IMG/VR virus record: IMGVR_UViG_3300024348_000279
Location: 1 to 21,937 of that record
Length of the DNA: 21,937 bases
From: a virus
Direction: 5' to 3' (one strand)
Part shown: positions 1 through 8,974 of the stretch, one piece after another
Position numbering within the stretch: position 1 is the stretch's first letter
Layout: every line of letters begins with the position of its first letter
Program-made: the position numbers and the translations under genes
Notes under the pieces: model-generated
What the model saw: the letters and a program-made list of their open reading frames with translations, nothing else
The model's database searches: none
What the model was told of the DNA's origin: nothing

Positions 1-105
1 CTTGTTAGGAGTAGAATGTGCTTCAACACATACTTGTTTCAGTGCCTTCTTTATTCTGCTCTTAAGCTCCTCAGTTAATTGTATGTTATTAGAGGTTGAG
101 GTCAT
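1..105 (-). CDS. Partial unknown gene overlapping the gp32 3' end
   Basis: An ATG at 105-103 opens a frame that stays open for all 35 codons to the window edge, so the 3' part of the gene is missing. The visible product begins MTSTSNNIQLTEELK and continues with a basic amphipathic stretch (SRIKKALKQVCVEAH). It starts 17 bases before the end of the gp32 gene, in another frame. No Shine-Dalgarno is seen, so it would probably be translated by coupling to gp32. In T4 the gene after 32 is the helicase loader 59, but these residues do not resemble the gp59 N-terminus I remember, so no function is assigned. The tight overlap and the lack of stops make a real gene more likely than chance. Confidence 0.55.
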   Translation of the reverse strand, partial: MTSTSNNIQLTEELKSRIKKALKQVCVEAHSTPNK

Positions 106-1012
106 TCAAGAAAGAATCTAAATCATCATCGGTATTAGCTTTTGCTGGTTCCGTTGCAGTTGCTACTGGAGCTGCTGCTGCCGGAGTGGCCGCTGCTGCT
201 ACAGGTGCTGCTTTTGGAGCTGCTTTCGATGCAGGTGTTGATGTAACCTCTGCAATAGAATCGCCTGGATTTAGATACATTCTAAGAACGTTGTTTACAA
301 ATGAACGAGTGTCTTCGTCCCATGCTTTGTAATCGTATGTTGCAAGTGAAGGAGCTGCTTCCAATTCCTCTTTAATACTTGCCATCGCCTCTTTAGATCT
401 TTCTGCTGGAGTTTCTCCCATTAAGATTGCAGATTTACTTGAAGAGAATTTAGACTTATCGTAGTTGTTATATTCCCCTTGTCTTGTAATAACAAGCTCA
501 AAGTTCTTACCTTCGAATAGGTCAAATACCTGAGTTGGCTCACCAAAATCTGGCTTCAATTCAGAATCAATCTTCTCTTTAATCTTATATCCAAATTTGA
601 ATACTTTGTAAGTACCTTCTAACTCTGGGTTTTGTGGGTCCTTAACGATCTTAATTAGAGAATAGTACTGCTGACGTCTCTTTAATTTCTCTGATGACTT
701 ACGGTCTACTGCAGAATCTGATTTTCTTAATTTCCAGAATACATCTGCAATTGGACAGTGTTCACCAATTGTTTGTGGAGAGTCTACTAGTTTACCATCT
801 CCATTAGAGTTAGTTAACCAGTGTACGTACTTTTGGATCAGAGATTTTCTTGGGTTCTCTGGGTTTGGTACAAAACGAATTAATGCTTTGTAAGTGCCGT
901 CTTTACCGTCGTCGGCTGTAGGTTTGTAAACTTCGTTTACGCTTGTTCTTTCAGGCTGGTGTGTTTCCACATCTTCCACGCCTAAGTTAAAAATGTCAAA
1001 TGAATCGCTCAT
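89..1012 (-). CDS. 32: T4 gp32-like single-stranded DNA-binding protein
   Basis: This protein would coat single-stranded DNA during phage replication, recombination and repair and contact other replication proteins through its acidic tail. It has 307 residues, close to T4 gp32 (301). Recognisable parts are the early core around residues 40-50 (YKALIRFVPN), the conserved stretch KIVKDPQNPELEGTYKVFKFG near 121-141, a YNNYDKSKF segment near 181-189 like T4 FSNYDESKF, and an acidic tail ending DDDLDSFLNDLNL, as in T4. An Ala/Pro-rich linker (about 263-292) separates core and tail. The zinc site looks degraded: His64 and Cys86 line up with T4 His64 and Cys87, but the equivalents of T4 Cys77 and Cys90 are absent. 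The start ATG follows an A-rich leader (AAAAGAAAATT). The next gene overlaps its 3' end. The family call is firm. Confidence 0.93.
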   Translation of the reverse strand: MSDSFDIFNLGVEDVETHQPERTSVNEVYKPTADDGKDGTYKALIRFVPNPENPRKSLIQKYVHWLTNSNGDGKLVDSPQTIGEHCPIADVFWKLRKSDSAVDRKSSEKLKRRQQYYSLIKIVKDPQNPELEGTYKVFKFGYKIKEKIDSELKPDFGEPTQVFDLFEGKNFELVITRQGEYNNYDKSKFSSSKSAILMGETPAERSKEAMASIKEELEAAPSLATYDYKAWDEDTRSFVNNVLRMYLNPGDSIAEVTSTPASKAAPKAAPVAAAATPAAAAPVATATEPAKANTDDDLDSFLNDLNL

Positions 1013-1117
1013 AATTTTCTTTTAGTTGTTTAAAATTGTTTAATAATGAAATACTTTAATTGTCTTTCAGTTCCTTATAGTTGTATAATAATCAATAGTT
1101 TCAAACTAGATTCATAT
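1013..1117 (-). promoter_or_regulatory. AU-rich leader of the gp32 gene
   Basis: This 105-base gene-free leader lies between the 73-residue gene and gp32. On the minus strand it begins with a small hairpin (TAGTT-TGA-AACTA, plus-strand 1096-1108). A second AACTA copy 3' of it (near 1078-1082) could pair with the same 5' arm. About 50 bases of nearly pure A/T, unstructured by eye, then run to the start codon. T4 gp32 represses its own translation by binding a pseudoknot followed by an AU-rich unstructured leader. The layout here is similar, but the resemblance is inferred and no pseudoknot was folded. TATAAGG near 1074-1080 could be a promoter element. Confidence 0.3.
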
Positions 1118-1339
1118 TTAACTTTGTGGTTCGCCAATCCCTTTTAACTCAGCATCAAAAACTCTTTCTATAGTTCCTTCACCTGAAGTTATGTATGGTC
1201 CGGCGAACGAGCACATTGTTATTGTTCCCGAGACAACGGTGTAACCCGCTGCGATCCCAGTATTGCATGGTGTATATTGAATTTCTAATGCTCCTTCCGA
1301 AGAATTATTTGTGATATTAAATACTTGACACTCAGGCAT
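1118..1339 (-). CDS. Small Cys-containing protein, stand-alone surface module
   Basis: The product has 73 residues, no signal peptide and no membrane segment. The N-terminal 60 residues follow the spacing C-x-x-F, N-x-T-N-N, Y-T-x-C, V-x(6)-M-C. The same pattern closes the 874-residue fibre protein (residues 792-853: C-x-x-Y, N-N-x-T-N, Y-T-x-C, V-x-x-V-V-C). I read it as a single free copy of that beta-rich, probably disulphide-linked module. From memory, small proteins with this Cys/Tyr pattern are common in Bacteroidota and their phages; I know no proven function. Its ATG overlaps the stop of the upstream gene by one base (TAATG), so the pair is translationally coupled. It could be a small virion decoration protein or a soluble partner of the fibre; both are guesses. 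Confidence 0.7.
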   Translation of the reverse strand: MPECQVFNITNNSSEGALEIQYTPCNTGIAAGYTVVSGTITMCSFAGPYITSGEGTIERVFDAELKGIGEPQS

Positions 1340-1533
1340 TACATTCGCTGTTTGTTAGAATCATAGTCCATCGTTAATATTGCTCCGTCAGGTTCCTTCC
1401 ATCTATTGTCCTCTAGCTTAATCAGCCCTGATTTGTGTAACAACGCCTCACGTTCTATAGACGTAATCTGGTTGCTTAACACCATTTTGTGTAGGATCGT
1501 CGCTAGACGAAAGTATTCTGCAGTTACTAACAT
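1339..1533 (-). CDS. Small hypothetical protein, 64 residues
   Basis: I do not recognise this protein. It has a helical, mildly amphipathic N-terminal half (residues 1-35, AEYFRLATILHKMVLSN and on) and a short C-terminal part with a likely beta hairpin (LEDNRWKEPDGAILTMDYD). It has no Cys, signal peptide or membrane segment. It is the first gene after the 287-base gap, so it probably opens the transcript that continues through the 73-residue gene to gp32. Its stop overlaps the next start (TAATG). The leader is A/T-rich with no Shine-Dalgarno, and a possible late-promoter-like ATATATAATA lies 28 bases upstream. A small regulator or structural protein is possible. The coupling to its neighbour is the main support that it is real. 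Confidence 0.6.
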   Translation of the reverse strand: MLVTAEYFRLATILHKMVLSNQITSIEREALLHKSGLIKLEDNRWKEPDGAILTMDYDSNKQRM

Positions 1534-5531: not shown

Positions 5532-6338
5532 TTAAAATTGTAAAAATTTAGGTGACCAGTATATTCCTACGCCAATTGAAGGCCCAGTACTAATTACCTG
5601 GTTATTATTTAAGTTAACACCATATCCAACTCCAAAGCCAACTAGCCATCTAGATTTCTTTTGGTCTTTTCTGTTTAATCTACTATTAACTAGGTTTATA
5701 TTTTCAATATCTTTAATCTCTAATCCAGGGTAGCTTGTTGATAACTTTAATCTATCTGCTCCGTCTACATTCTCAATCGCAGCCATTAGGCTTAAAGTTT
5801 GTGTCAATTCAAACTTAGTTTCCAGTACTTTAAATTTTTCAAATTCATATTTAAAGGTAGAAAACCCTGTTAGTTTTCTAGAGTTACCATCACCGAAATC
5901 TTCAGCAGATGTAAAAGTAACTTTAGTAGTTGTCGTGTCAATAGTCTCAGTTGTAGTAGTTACATCTAGACTATCTTTAATTTCTAGGTTAGCAGATATT
6001 AATGAGTTAACTTCTTTTAAGTCATCATTAAGTGCTAAAGCCTTTTTATACTTTTTAGTCAACTTAGCCTGGCTAGATTCTAAGTTTGATAAATCAAACT
6101 CAAAAGATCTAATTTGAGCTAGTTGATCTCCATTATCATTTCTTAAGATTGTAACTGAGTCTTGAGCAGCCTTAAAGTTATTAAGTTGTCTGCCGGCATC
6201 TTCTTGTGCTAGTTTTACATCTTGTTTTAAGTTCTCAATACTATTACATTGTCTAAGAAATAATAAACATAAAAGAACTCCGGCGATAAACATCACCAGA
6301 GACTTATTAGATAGTATATTTTTTATTTTGTCCTTCAT
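5532..6338 (-). CDS. Membrane-anchored coiled-coil protein, spanin candidate
   Basis: The product has 268 residues in three parts. A basic N-terminus and one membrane segment (about 12-29, SLVMFIAGVLLCLLFL) give an inner-membrane anchor with the rest outside. Residues 33-112 form a long charged coiled coil. After a Thr-rich patch (126-138) comes a beta-rich C-terminal part. Its last 40 residues have alternating strands (LVGFGVGYGVNL; GPSIGVGIYWSPKFLQF) and end in Phe, like the terminal beta-signal of outer-membrane proteins. The layout would let it span the periplasm, as a spanin does in the last step of lysis, but no canonical lipobox is seen. A phage membrane or tail-associated protein is the alternative. 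The leader is A-rich (AAAATAAAAAATT), and spacing to neighbours is 11 and 3 bases. Confidence 0.7.
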   Translation of the reverse strand: MKDKIKNILSNKSLVMFIAGVLLCLLFLRQCNSIENLKQDVKLAQEDAGRQLNNFKAAQDSVTILRNDNGDQLAQIRSFEFDLSNLESSQAKLTKKYKKALALNDDLKEVNSLISANLEIKDSLDVTTTTETIDTTTTKVTFTSAEDFGDGNSRKLTGFSTFKYEFEKFKVLETKFELTQTLSLMAAIENVDGADRLKLSTSYPGLEIKDIENINLVNSRLNRKDQKKSRWLVGFGVGYGVNLNNNQVISTGPSIGVGIYWSPKFLQF

Positions 6339-6349
6339 AATTTTTTATT

Positions 6350-8974
6350 TTATCTAGCGTCGCCACTACCGCTTCCGGAACTATCACCGCCACTACCAGA
6401 ACCACTACTTGGGTAACATTGTGCACCAATCTGGAAGTTAGACCACGTTCCCTGGATTAAATTCACTGATATTAAATCAGCACATACTACCGTGGAAGTA
6501 AATGGATTTGAAGTTATTTGGTTTGGTACGCCACACTCAGTGTACGATGCTGTTACTGTCGAGTTAGTGTTATTATTCCATGAATGGAAATATTTAGTAC
6601 ATGGCGCCGCTGTTGTTGTAGCAACAGTTGTTGCTTCAGTTATATAGCCTGAACAGTCTACACCATCCTGGTCAGTAGTTCCATTCAAGTCAAATACAAA
6701 ACCTATTTTATCAGCACCCCATCCAGCATCTGGAGTTCTCGAACTCGATGTGGTTGCAGCCGTTAGCTTCGCGTTGTTTACGTAAATATTTGGTTTATTA
6801 TCAATCATTTTAGTTAAGAAATCTGATTGAGTTCCATCGTAATTTATTGTGTAAGTTCCTCCGGAGCTATTACATGCTAGTGACGGACTAAATGCAGCGG
6901 CAAATGTTGCGAATGCCGGCCATGATGTATCAGTAATATTTCTAGTTACACTTAAACTGCCTGTTGCATTACCGGCAGAATCAGTTGCCAATAGAGTAGC
7001 TACCACATCTTCTCTATCACCTTCTGCTACAGCTTCTAATACTACATCATTTGTTATGTCAATTGATCCAGATCCTGTATTATTGTTTATTGTAATCGAT
7101 AATCCATTACCCACTCCTGCGCCAGCTCCTGAGCTATCGCCGGTATAATCATTTGGACTTGCACTTCCTGTTAGGTTTAACCATACTGTAGTTCCATCTA
7201 CTATATCAGTCGTTCCAACTGTATATACGATTGTAGTTCCTTCGTCTACATTTGCATCACCAGGTGATGCAGTTAATGTATTATACGCAGGCGCCGGTGC
7301 TTGAGTTGCAGGCGTCGGCGTTGCTGTCGCATTAGTTGCCGGATTCACTAATGTAAAGTCATGTCTATCAGTACAACCATTCGTAATATCAGTTATGATT
7401 GCGTAATATGTTCCCGCAGCTAATGCAAATGTATTTACAATTTGGTCATTAGACGCAAGATATGTAACAAGCTCATAATTAGCTGAGCCGCCAGTCGCAG
7501 TCATAGTAAATTGCCCATCGCTACCACCATAAGTAGTTGGATTTACTGGAGTTTCATTATCTTTTGCAAAGTTTGCACAATAAGTACAACTTCCATCATC
7601 ACCTGTTGCGTTTGGATCATAATTATCCGCGTTTGGATCTGTACAACCCTGTCCATACTCTGGATTAGCAACTTGCGATATTGTCATCGAATCTGTTGCA
7701 TTTGCATTACTAGGATGTGTTATTACAATATTCCCTGTTCTAGCACCAGTTGCATTCGCAGCAATTGTAAAGTTCAATTCAGGATCAAACGTAGTTCCAT
7801 CAAAATATGAGTCTATTGTTACCCATGCCGGTGCAGTTACTTTATCAGCACTTAGTATTAATCCAACAGTTGGTGTCGTACTGTAAGTTATTTCACCAGC
7901 ACCACCACTATGTGTTATATTAACAAATTGAGACTCGTCACCAGTAAACGCAATTGTTTCTACTGGAGCGCTTGTTGCATTTGTTGCTGACGTTGTAGCC
8001 GCAGTTGCTAATGTTGTTGCAGGTTCTCCAGTCCATGGATCCCCGTTTTCATCAACTTCTAAATCACCAGATGGGTCTATTACCACCGTGTTACCTATAA
8101 TACCTCCGTATTGGTTTAGATTTAGATCTGCAGGTTGTTCAACTATAGCAACAGTTCCAGGAGTACTACCAGCACCACAAGGCGCTGTACAGAATTCTTT
8201 CCATGAAACAGTTCCATTGCCATCTTCAATTGCTCCCCAAAAGGCGCCATCACGGAATCTAATCATACCAGCCTCTAGAAAGGCAGCAGCAACGTTTGTC
8301 TCAGGTAATTTAAAAGTATTATTTATATTACTATCAAAGCTAACATTAGATTTAAAAGTAAATTTATCTAATTCTACAAAATATTCAATTATTTCTGCAG
8401 GATCTGTATTTAAATTAGCACCATAAGTCTCTGCTAATGTAAATCTAGTCCAATCGACATCTCCATCAGTTTGTTCAGATGTACTAAGAGTAATTGCTAT
8501 ATTATTTGAAGTTCCAGTTCTTTGTCCATGCCAATAAGTAATTAATTCATCAGAAGGAGAATTCCCTCCAACTGCATGTTTCCCAACTACTATTGTAGAT
8601 CTTAAATTAGTTCTACCATTATTATCCTGAACCTCATTAAAATCTTGATCTCCTAAAAATATTACTGGATGATAATTATCTGTTGATACTTTAGGCTTAA
8701 GTATAACATATTCATTTTGAGCAGTACCATTATTAACAGGAATAACTTTCCATCTAGAAGTAGTCTCTCCAGTTAAACCCTGAGGACCTATTTCACCTTG
8801 ATCTCCTTTTTGTCCAGTCTGTCCAACAGATCCCTGATCTCCTGGATTTCCCTTTTTACCTATAGGACCGCCACCGTTAGCCAGTATCTGGTCAAAGTTA
8901 TAGTTAACCTTTTCCCACTTGATCTGGTTAGAGTCACTAGGGTGTAGTATTTCTTGTATATTGAATATGGCCAT
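6350..8974 (-). CDS. Collagen-like fibre/adhesin with BACON and SprB-like modules
   Basis: This is a probable receptor-binding fibre or head/tail decoration protein of 874 residues. In order: an N-terminal attachment region (1-34, includes KWEKVNYNFDQIL); a collagen-like run of about 11 Gly-X-Y triplets (35-70); a beta-rich region (71-265); an Ala/Thr linker (317-340); a BACON-like Ig domain (345-437, APAWVTID and ISQVA); the motif CTDPNA..NYDPNAT.DDGSC (444-463); a SprB-like repeat (466-545, GGSDGQFTMTATGGS and AGTYYAIITDITNGC); an Ala/Thr/Pro linker (545-563); a Calx-beta-like domain (563-682); a Cys-rich region; and a C-terminal module (792-853) matching the 73-residue gene, followed by a Gly/Ser tail. 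The DNA coding for the C-terminal modules is much GC-richer than the start of the gene. It begins 3 bases after the giant gene. Confidence 0.85.
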   Translation of the reverse strand: MAIFNIQEILHPSDSNQIKWEKVNYNFDQILANGGGPIGKKGNPGDQGSVGQTGQKGDQGEIGPQGLTGETTSRWKVIPVNNGTAQNEYVILKPKVSTDNYHPVIFLGDQDFNEVQDNNGRTNLRSTIVVGKHAVGGNSPSDELITYWHGQRTGTSNNIAITLSTSEQTDGDVDWTRFTLAETYGANLNTDPAEIIEYFVELDKFTFKSNVSFDSNINNTFKLPETNVAAAFLEAGMIRFRDGAFWGAIEDGNGTVSWKEFCTAPCGAGSTPGTVAIVEQPADLNLNQYGGIIGNTVVIDPSGDLEVDENGDPWTGEPATTLATAATTSATNATSAPVETIAFTGDESQFVNITHSGGAGEITYSTTPTVGLILSADKVTAPAWVTIDSYFDGTTFDPELNFTIAANATGARTGNIVITHPSNANATDSMTISQVANPEYGQGCTDPNADNYDPNATGDDGSCTYCANFAKDNETPVNPTTYGGSDGQFTMTATGGSANYELVTYLASNDQIVNTFALAAGTYYAIITDITNGCTDRHDFTLVNPATNATATPTPATQAPAPAYNTLTASPGDANVDEGTTIVYTVGTTDIVDGTTVWLNLTGSASPNDYTGDSSGAGAGVGNGLSITINNNTGSGSIDITNDVVLEAVAEGDREDVVATLLATDSAGNATGSLSVTRNITDTSWPAFATFAAAFSPSLACNSSGGTYTINYDGTQSDFLTKMIDNKPNIYVNNAKLTAATTSSSRTPDAGWGADKIGFVFDLNGTTDQDGVDCSGYITEATTVATTTAAPCTKYFHSWNNNTNSTVTASYTECGVPNQITSNPFTSTVVCADLISVNLIQGTWSNFQIGAQCYPSSGSGSGGDSSGSGSGDAR
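6416..6601 (-). other. C-terminal Cys module shared with the 73-residue gene
   Basis: Residues 792-853 of the fibre protein carry C-x-x-Y, an Asn/Thr-rich turn, A-S-Y-T-E-C, T-V-V-C and a final C. Order and spacing match those in the small gene at 1118-1339. The linker just before it (EATTVATTTAAP) resembles linkers before other modules, marking it as a separable unit. Confidence 0.6.
7340..7579 (-). other. SprB-like repeat domain
   Basis: Residues 466-545 have the SprB spacing: a G-x-D-G-x-F strand, a T-G-G-S-x-N-Y turn, a hydrophobic strand, then L-x-A-G-T-Y-Y-x-I-I-T-D-x-x-x-G-C-T and a last strand before Pro. SprB repeats are known from the mobile surface adhesins of gliding Flavobacteriia. 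A phage copy suggests a fold taken from, or shaped by, the host surface. Confidence 0.6.
7664..7942 (-). other. BACON-like Ig-fold domain in the fibre protein
   Basis: Residues 345-437 show the BACON pattern: an A-W-V-T-I strand, then F-T-I-A-A-N-A-T-G-A-R-T-G-N-I-V-I, and a final T-I-S-Q-V-A strand. The family is common in Bacteroidota surface proteins and in their phages, where it is thought to aid binding to glycans. Confidence 0.65.
8765..8872 (-). repeat. Collagen-like Gly-X-Y repeat
   Basis: Residues 35-70 of the fibre protein carry about 11 uninterrupted Gly-X-Y triplets (GPI, GKK, GNP, GDQ and so on). Such triplets form trimeric stalks in many phage tail fibres, so the protein is probably a trimer. 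Confidence 0.85.

Follow-up and report, generated by a model that had tools for sequence, protein, structure and literature searches.

Why would a phage carry, directly beside its gp32 gene, a small gene whose product resembles the tip of its own fibre? The question is raised by an IMG/VR virus record of 21.9 kb (21,937 nucleotides; the whole stretch was analysed and is called the window here), in which a 73-aa protein and the last domain of an 874-aa fibre seemed to share a module. The original prediction held that this module seems to exist both inside the fibre and as a signal-less stand-alone protein in a replication segment, where it might decorate the virion, occupy the partner site of the fibre or act as a donor cassette for fibre change.

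The locus

The main genes of the window all lie on the minus strand: 1,219-aa structural-type protein, 3,065-aa protein, 874-aa fibre, spanin-like protein, 698-aa, 183-aa and 122-aa proteins, RuvC-like gene, 64-aa gene, 73-aa gene and gp32. The following features are used below.

89..1012, minus: gp32, single-stranded DNA-binding protein (PF08804, E 8e-19; phrog_224, E 2e-41)
1013..1117, minus: leader of gp32, conserved, at which the inserted 73-aa gene has its downstream border (alignment of relatives)
1118..1339, minus: gene of the stand-alone module, with a product of 73 aa (start codon ATG at 1339, stop 1118-1120; family profile E 1.5e-6)
1121..1159, minus: C-terminal tail of the stand-alone protein, residues 61-73 (sequence conservation, model)
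1160..1330, minus: residues 4-60 of the stand-alone protein, its module domain, with six beta strands predicted (AlphaFold pLDDT 82.4; family alignment)
1339..1533, minus: 64-aa gene, directly upstream of the 73-aa gene (present in nearly all relatives)
6350..8974, minus: 874-aa fibre protein with a collagen-like N-terminal stretch (ORF list; PHROGs and collagen matches)
6416..6601, minus: fibre tip module, 62 residues, four Cys, from CTKYF to GAQC (profile 24.0 bits, E 1e-5; model)

As a replication segment the surroundings are loosely described: gp32 and the RuvC-like gene are close by, yet the 73-aa gene shares its strand with the structural genes and is some 5 kb away from the fibre. At its start it overlaps the stop of the 64-aa gene, in the sequence TAATG. 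Tail fibre PHROGs and collagen matches of the 874-aa fibre cover residues 34-81 only. Because the phage relatives of the 1,219-aa protein are found in Tenacibaculum, Flavobacterium, Chryseobacterium and Prevotella phages and in Sphingomonas phage PAU, the host of the window virus is likely a member of the Bacteroidota.

Three other parts of the locus were noted in passing. Directly after the fibre, the spanin-like protein (window 5532-6338) matches phrog_89 (E 4e-5) and, weakly, DUF6808. Across relatives, positions 1013-1100 of the gp32 leader (minus strand, TTGTACAACTATAAGGAACTGAAAGAC...) show strong conservation, beyond the needs of a plain spacer, and a promoter or a gp32 translational operator is a candidate explanation. 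Some 290 nt (1534-1820) separate the RuvC-like from the 64-aa gene and contain short repeats such as GCAGAGACT; an Rfam search that included this gap gave no match, and a tRNA search found none.

A domain family shared by small protein and fibre tip

Direct BLASTP of the 73-aa protein against the fibre tip is weak (24 aligned residues, E 0.016), and viral contigs were therefore scanned for a wider family, using a search pattern at the DNA level that encodes YT[DN]C[DN]G and then Cys-Ala. Nearly all pattern matches belong to one domain family with the signature CxxY..N..YTDCNG..CA..GxC, present in one to six copies per ORF. A hit in contig L224 was rejected as a false positive, being an antisense ORF. 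The family profile was built from 81 non-redundant members with four Cys, all from other viral contigs and none from the phage group of the window. It scores the window stand-alone at 22.1 bits and the window fibre tip at 24.0 bits, and none of 1,500 shuffles of either one reaches the score of its own sequence. As a control for the choice of this particular pair by the original prediction, all 227 window ORFs of at least 30 codons were scored: only the stand-alone (E 1.5e-6) and the fibre tip (E 1e-5) match the profile, and the next ORF stands at E 0.93. Aligning the stand-alone family with 43 members of the wide family by hhalign gives a probability of 94% and E 1.4e-7, while its profile-profile comparison with an alignment led by the fibre tip gives E 8.5e-7. 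With a profile made of the stand-alones alone, a match is obtained at the C-terminal end of a protein annotated as structural, from the genome of an environmental podovirus (E 4e-5).

The predicted structures point in the same direction. The AlphaFold model of the stand-alone, built from its own eight-row alignment (pLDDT 82.4), places strands at residues 5-11, 18-22, 31-35, 38-44, 49-52 and 55-60; that of the fibre tip, built from an alignment that excluded the stand-alones (pLDDT 77.7), places them at 6-11, 18-24, 27-33, 38-43, 45-47 and 59-63. In both models Y-T-x-C occupies residues 22-25, after the second strand. Judged from strand order, register and the profile match, the two are predicted to share one fold of six beta strands. 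A fold search of the PDB gave no significant match, and a search of predicted viral structures gave none at E 0.001 or better, its best matches being phage proteins, one of which (TM 0.65) carries the annotation major tail protein.

We regard membership of the fibre tip and the small protein in a single domain family as almost certain. The claim that the same module occurs inside the fibre and, without a signal, as a stand-alone protein beside gp32 is thus borne out by profile, profile-profile and model agreement. Profile comparison and structure prediction had been proposed as its checks; the former gives a significant match (E 1.4e-7), and in the latter the separate models agree in six-strand order and in the register of Y-T-x-C. 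The motif order that had first suggested the link is shared in part: Y-T-x-C is present in both sequences, but V-x-C as the third element holds for the fibre alone (V-V-C), the small protein having I-T-M-C.

To place the module within its proteins we used 118 ORFs, nine of them stand-alones. The last module ends at most 20 residues from the C-terminus in 71 of the 118 (the nine stand-alones counted). Outside the stand-alones it sits inside large proteins, mainly of virion type, for the most part at the C-terminal ends of tail fibres and muzzle-family tail proteins. Five large module carriers match phrog_14478, a virion structural protein, and one of these five also matches crAss_MUZ (Pfam PF25731). 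In crAss001 the tail ends in the muzzle protein, which probably makes contact with the surface of the cell (PMC10172136). The domain family is accordingly found on virion proteins in its wide form, and from its position we infer that the module is a surface-binding domain. Searches of Pfam, PHROGs and the PDB gave no significant match or model for it, and no description of it was found in the literature. We here define it, from viral contigs, as the YTDCNG tail-tip module family, for which none of these three databases has an entry.

By profile, the C-terminal module of the crAss-type muzzle family (phrog_14478; PF25731 in one) is the same domain as that of the 73-aa protein. In the muzzle family, however, it is fused to a virion protein of 1,550-1,950 aa and has four Cys, whereas the stand-alone is free, has three Cys and carries an extra tail. 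The 73-aa protein keeps the first three Cys, and we file it as a family variant because the fourth is replaced by an LxGxGxP tail; the four-Cys trait is common to the sequences used, and a Cys is missing from certain fibre tips of this family as well. One candidate, the tip F015 of contig L015 (and L033), is module-like by eye and was rejected, its profile score being no better than that of its own shuffles.

The free gene and the fibre tips

The 73-aa gene is found in 12 of 80 contigs with a close gp32, inserted between the 64-aa gene and the gp32 leader; in 67 of the 68 others the 64-aa gene stops 63-98 nt ahead of gp32. A family search recovered the stand-alone gene from 13 contigs, in every one of which (13/13) it adjoins gp32, and about eight distinct sequences are known. 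The carriers are large myovirus-like contigs related to Bacteroidota phages and form one clade in the gp32 tree (99/99), which fits a single gain of the gene. On the evidence of its coding sequence the gene is real and kept under purifying selection (dN/dS among orthologues 0.16-0.47). The stand-alone is absent from the cultured relatives MaF61, MA9V-2, PTm5, pT24 and PAU, from two large uncultured phage genomes and from Motura; a module search of the same genomes, Motura aside, found no module either. Searches of 50,697 phage records by tblastn gave no match for the stand-alone and the tips, and none for two members of the wide family; a third member gave one weak match, to a structural protein, which was later confirmed by profile. 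Within the clade, the gp32 tree groups contig L029 with L031 and L032, yet the stand-alone of L029 is of the window type (70% identity versus 46%), a pattern that we read as a recombination break between the neighbouring gp32 and stand-alone genes.

The window stand-alone is 17% identical to its own fibre tip and 46-99% identical to the other stand-alones. The longest DNA common to the stand-alone and fibre genes is 12 bases (codon shuffles: mean 10, maximum 15), and a tree built on few columns groups the stand-alones in a single clade (98/92) that excludes the window tip. Between L001 and L004 the stand-alones are 99% identical and the fibre tips 35%. L029 has kept the stand-alone gene together with a fibre that diverges ahead of the tip and in which no module is detectable. 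A tip module with no stand-alone beside gp32 occurs in L024 and L085 and, as a weak match, in L034 and L047. By these comparisons the free gene is no spare tip and does not track the fibre tip. The collagen-type fibre tips of the same phage group (window, L004 and L085; weaker in L024, L047 and L034) are of the same family and predicted strand order, but they diverge and are exchanged quickly, whereas the free copies are conserved and group in a clade of their own.

Since the stand-alone stays constant while tips swap, a donor cassette is unlikely and a competitor for the partner site is weakened. Exchange of fibre tips among relatives is what a cassette for fibre change by recombination would serve, but the longest common DNA is within the range of codon shuffles and the stand-alones form a clade apart from the window's own tip; with 17% identity between the two as well, this suggestion of the original prediction finds no support, and we give it next to no weight. 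An assembly helper or competitor matched to the tip would bind the partner of the fibre or aid folding of the tip, and the stand-alone does fall in the fold family of the tip in the window and in L004. Such matching is quite improbable given the near-identical stand-alones and dissimilar tips of L001 and L004, the gene of L029 beside a fibre without the module, and the tip modules of L024, L034, L047 and L085 without a gene beside gp32. The first two of these observations also weaken the earlier idea of an occupant of the fibre's partner site.

A module of receptor type, made free in the cytoplasm, would be expected to escape at lysis, and by this reasoning it might serve as a soluble decoy that covers receptors on debris or infected neighbours and spares the progeny useless adsorption. 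A decoy should, however, match the tip of the same phage, and at 17% identity it does not, which makes this function very improbable. A somewhat unlikely reading is that an undescribed surface module, common on the tail proteins of environmental phages, became detached as a free protein working by itself, either as a second adhesin on the particle, independent of the fibre, or as a receptor-covering decoy let out at lysis.

Possible roles of the free module

The role that we tentatively favour is that of a small accessory virion protein docked by its tail. No signal peptide is seen by eye in the 73-aa protein. The free module would be made without a signal and fold in the cytoplasm, and its conserved C-terminal tail (LxGxGxP) would dock it onto a constant part of the particle, which would thereby display an extra copy of the module whatever the fibre tip. 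A constant free module with a private tail is what suggests an accessory protein at a constant site. In the tail, L65, G67, G69 and P71 are invariant among stand-alones, and the segment is missing from fibre modules; model confidence is low from residue 66, and the tail is probably flexible. The family kinship, the predicted fold, the virion setting of the wide family, the single gain, the maintenance of the gene and the invariant tail residues argue for this reading. Against it, the gene adjoins gp32, outside the tail cluster, distinct sequences number only about eight, and the fourth Cys is lost, so that the chemistry of the stand-alone differs.

It is just as conceivable that a module free in the cytoplasm was taken over for work inside the cell. 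In the main rival, which is of this kind, the small protein is expressed together with gp32 and acts in host takeover, in anti-defence or in a gp32-linked role. Its start is coupled to the 64-aa gene, directly ahead of the gp32 leader, and the missing signal peptide, the lost fourth Cys and a persistence independent of fibre type would all suit a task inside the cell. Every other relative recovered, however, lies in large phage proteins that are virion-type or unclassified, and similarity to Pfam or PHROGs families is lacking, so we rate this rival as unlikely.

An accessory virion protein of this type would have a counterpart in phage Ig-like domains and T4 Hoc/Soc, in which a small beta domain is fused to tail proteins and, in Hoc, is a separate decoration protein. 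For the 73-aa protein, the PDB gave neither a sequence match nor a significant structure match. The tail-tip module is widespread on the fibres and muzzle-family proteins of phages, among them several groups infecting Bacteroidota, and can live as a free gene. The 73-aa protein offers a short, soluble handle for finding the ligands of such tips in crAss-like and marine Bacteroidota phages.

At the fibre locus itself, C-termini are swapped as blocks among close relatives (L001, L004, L015, L024, L029, L033, L034, L047 and L085), and the N-terminal parts of the same fibres are 42-70% identical in most and 35% in L085. In L223, a 165 kb relative, a gene of the fibre cluster ends in a Hint or intein-like stretch (CLIGGTKITLSDGSLINIENLNVGQ).
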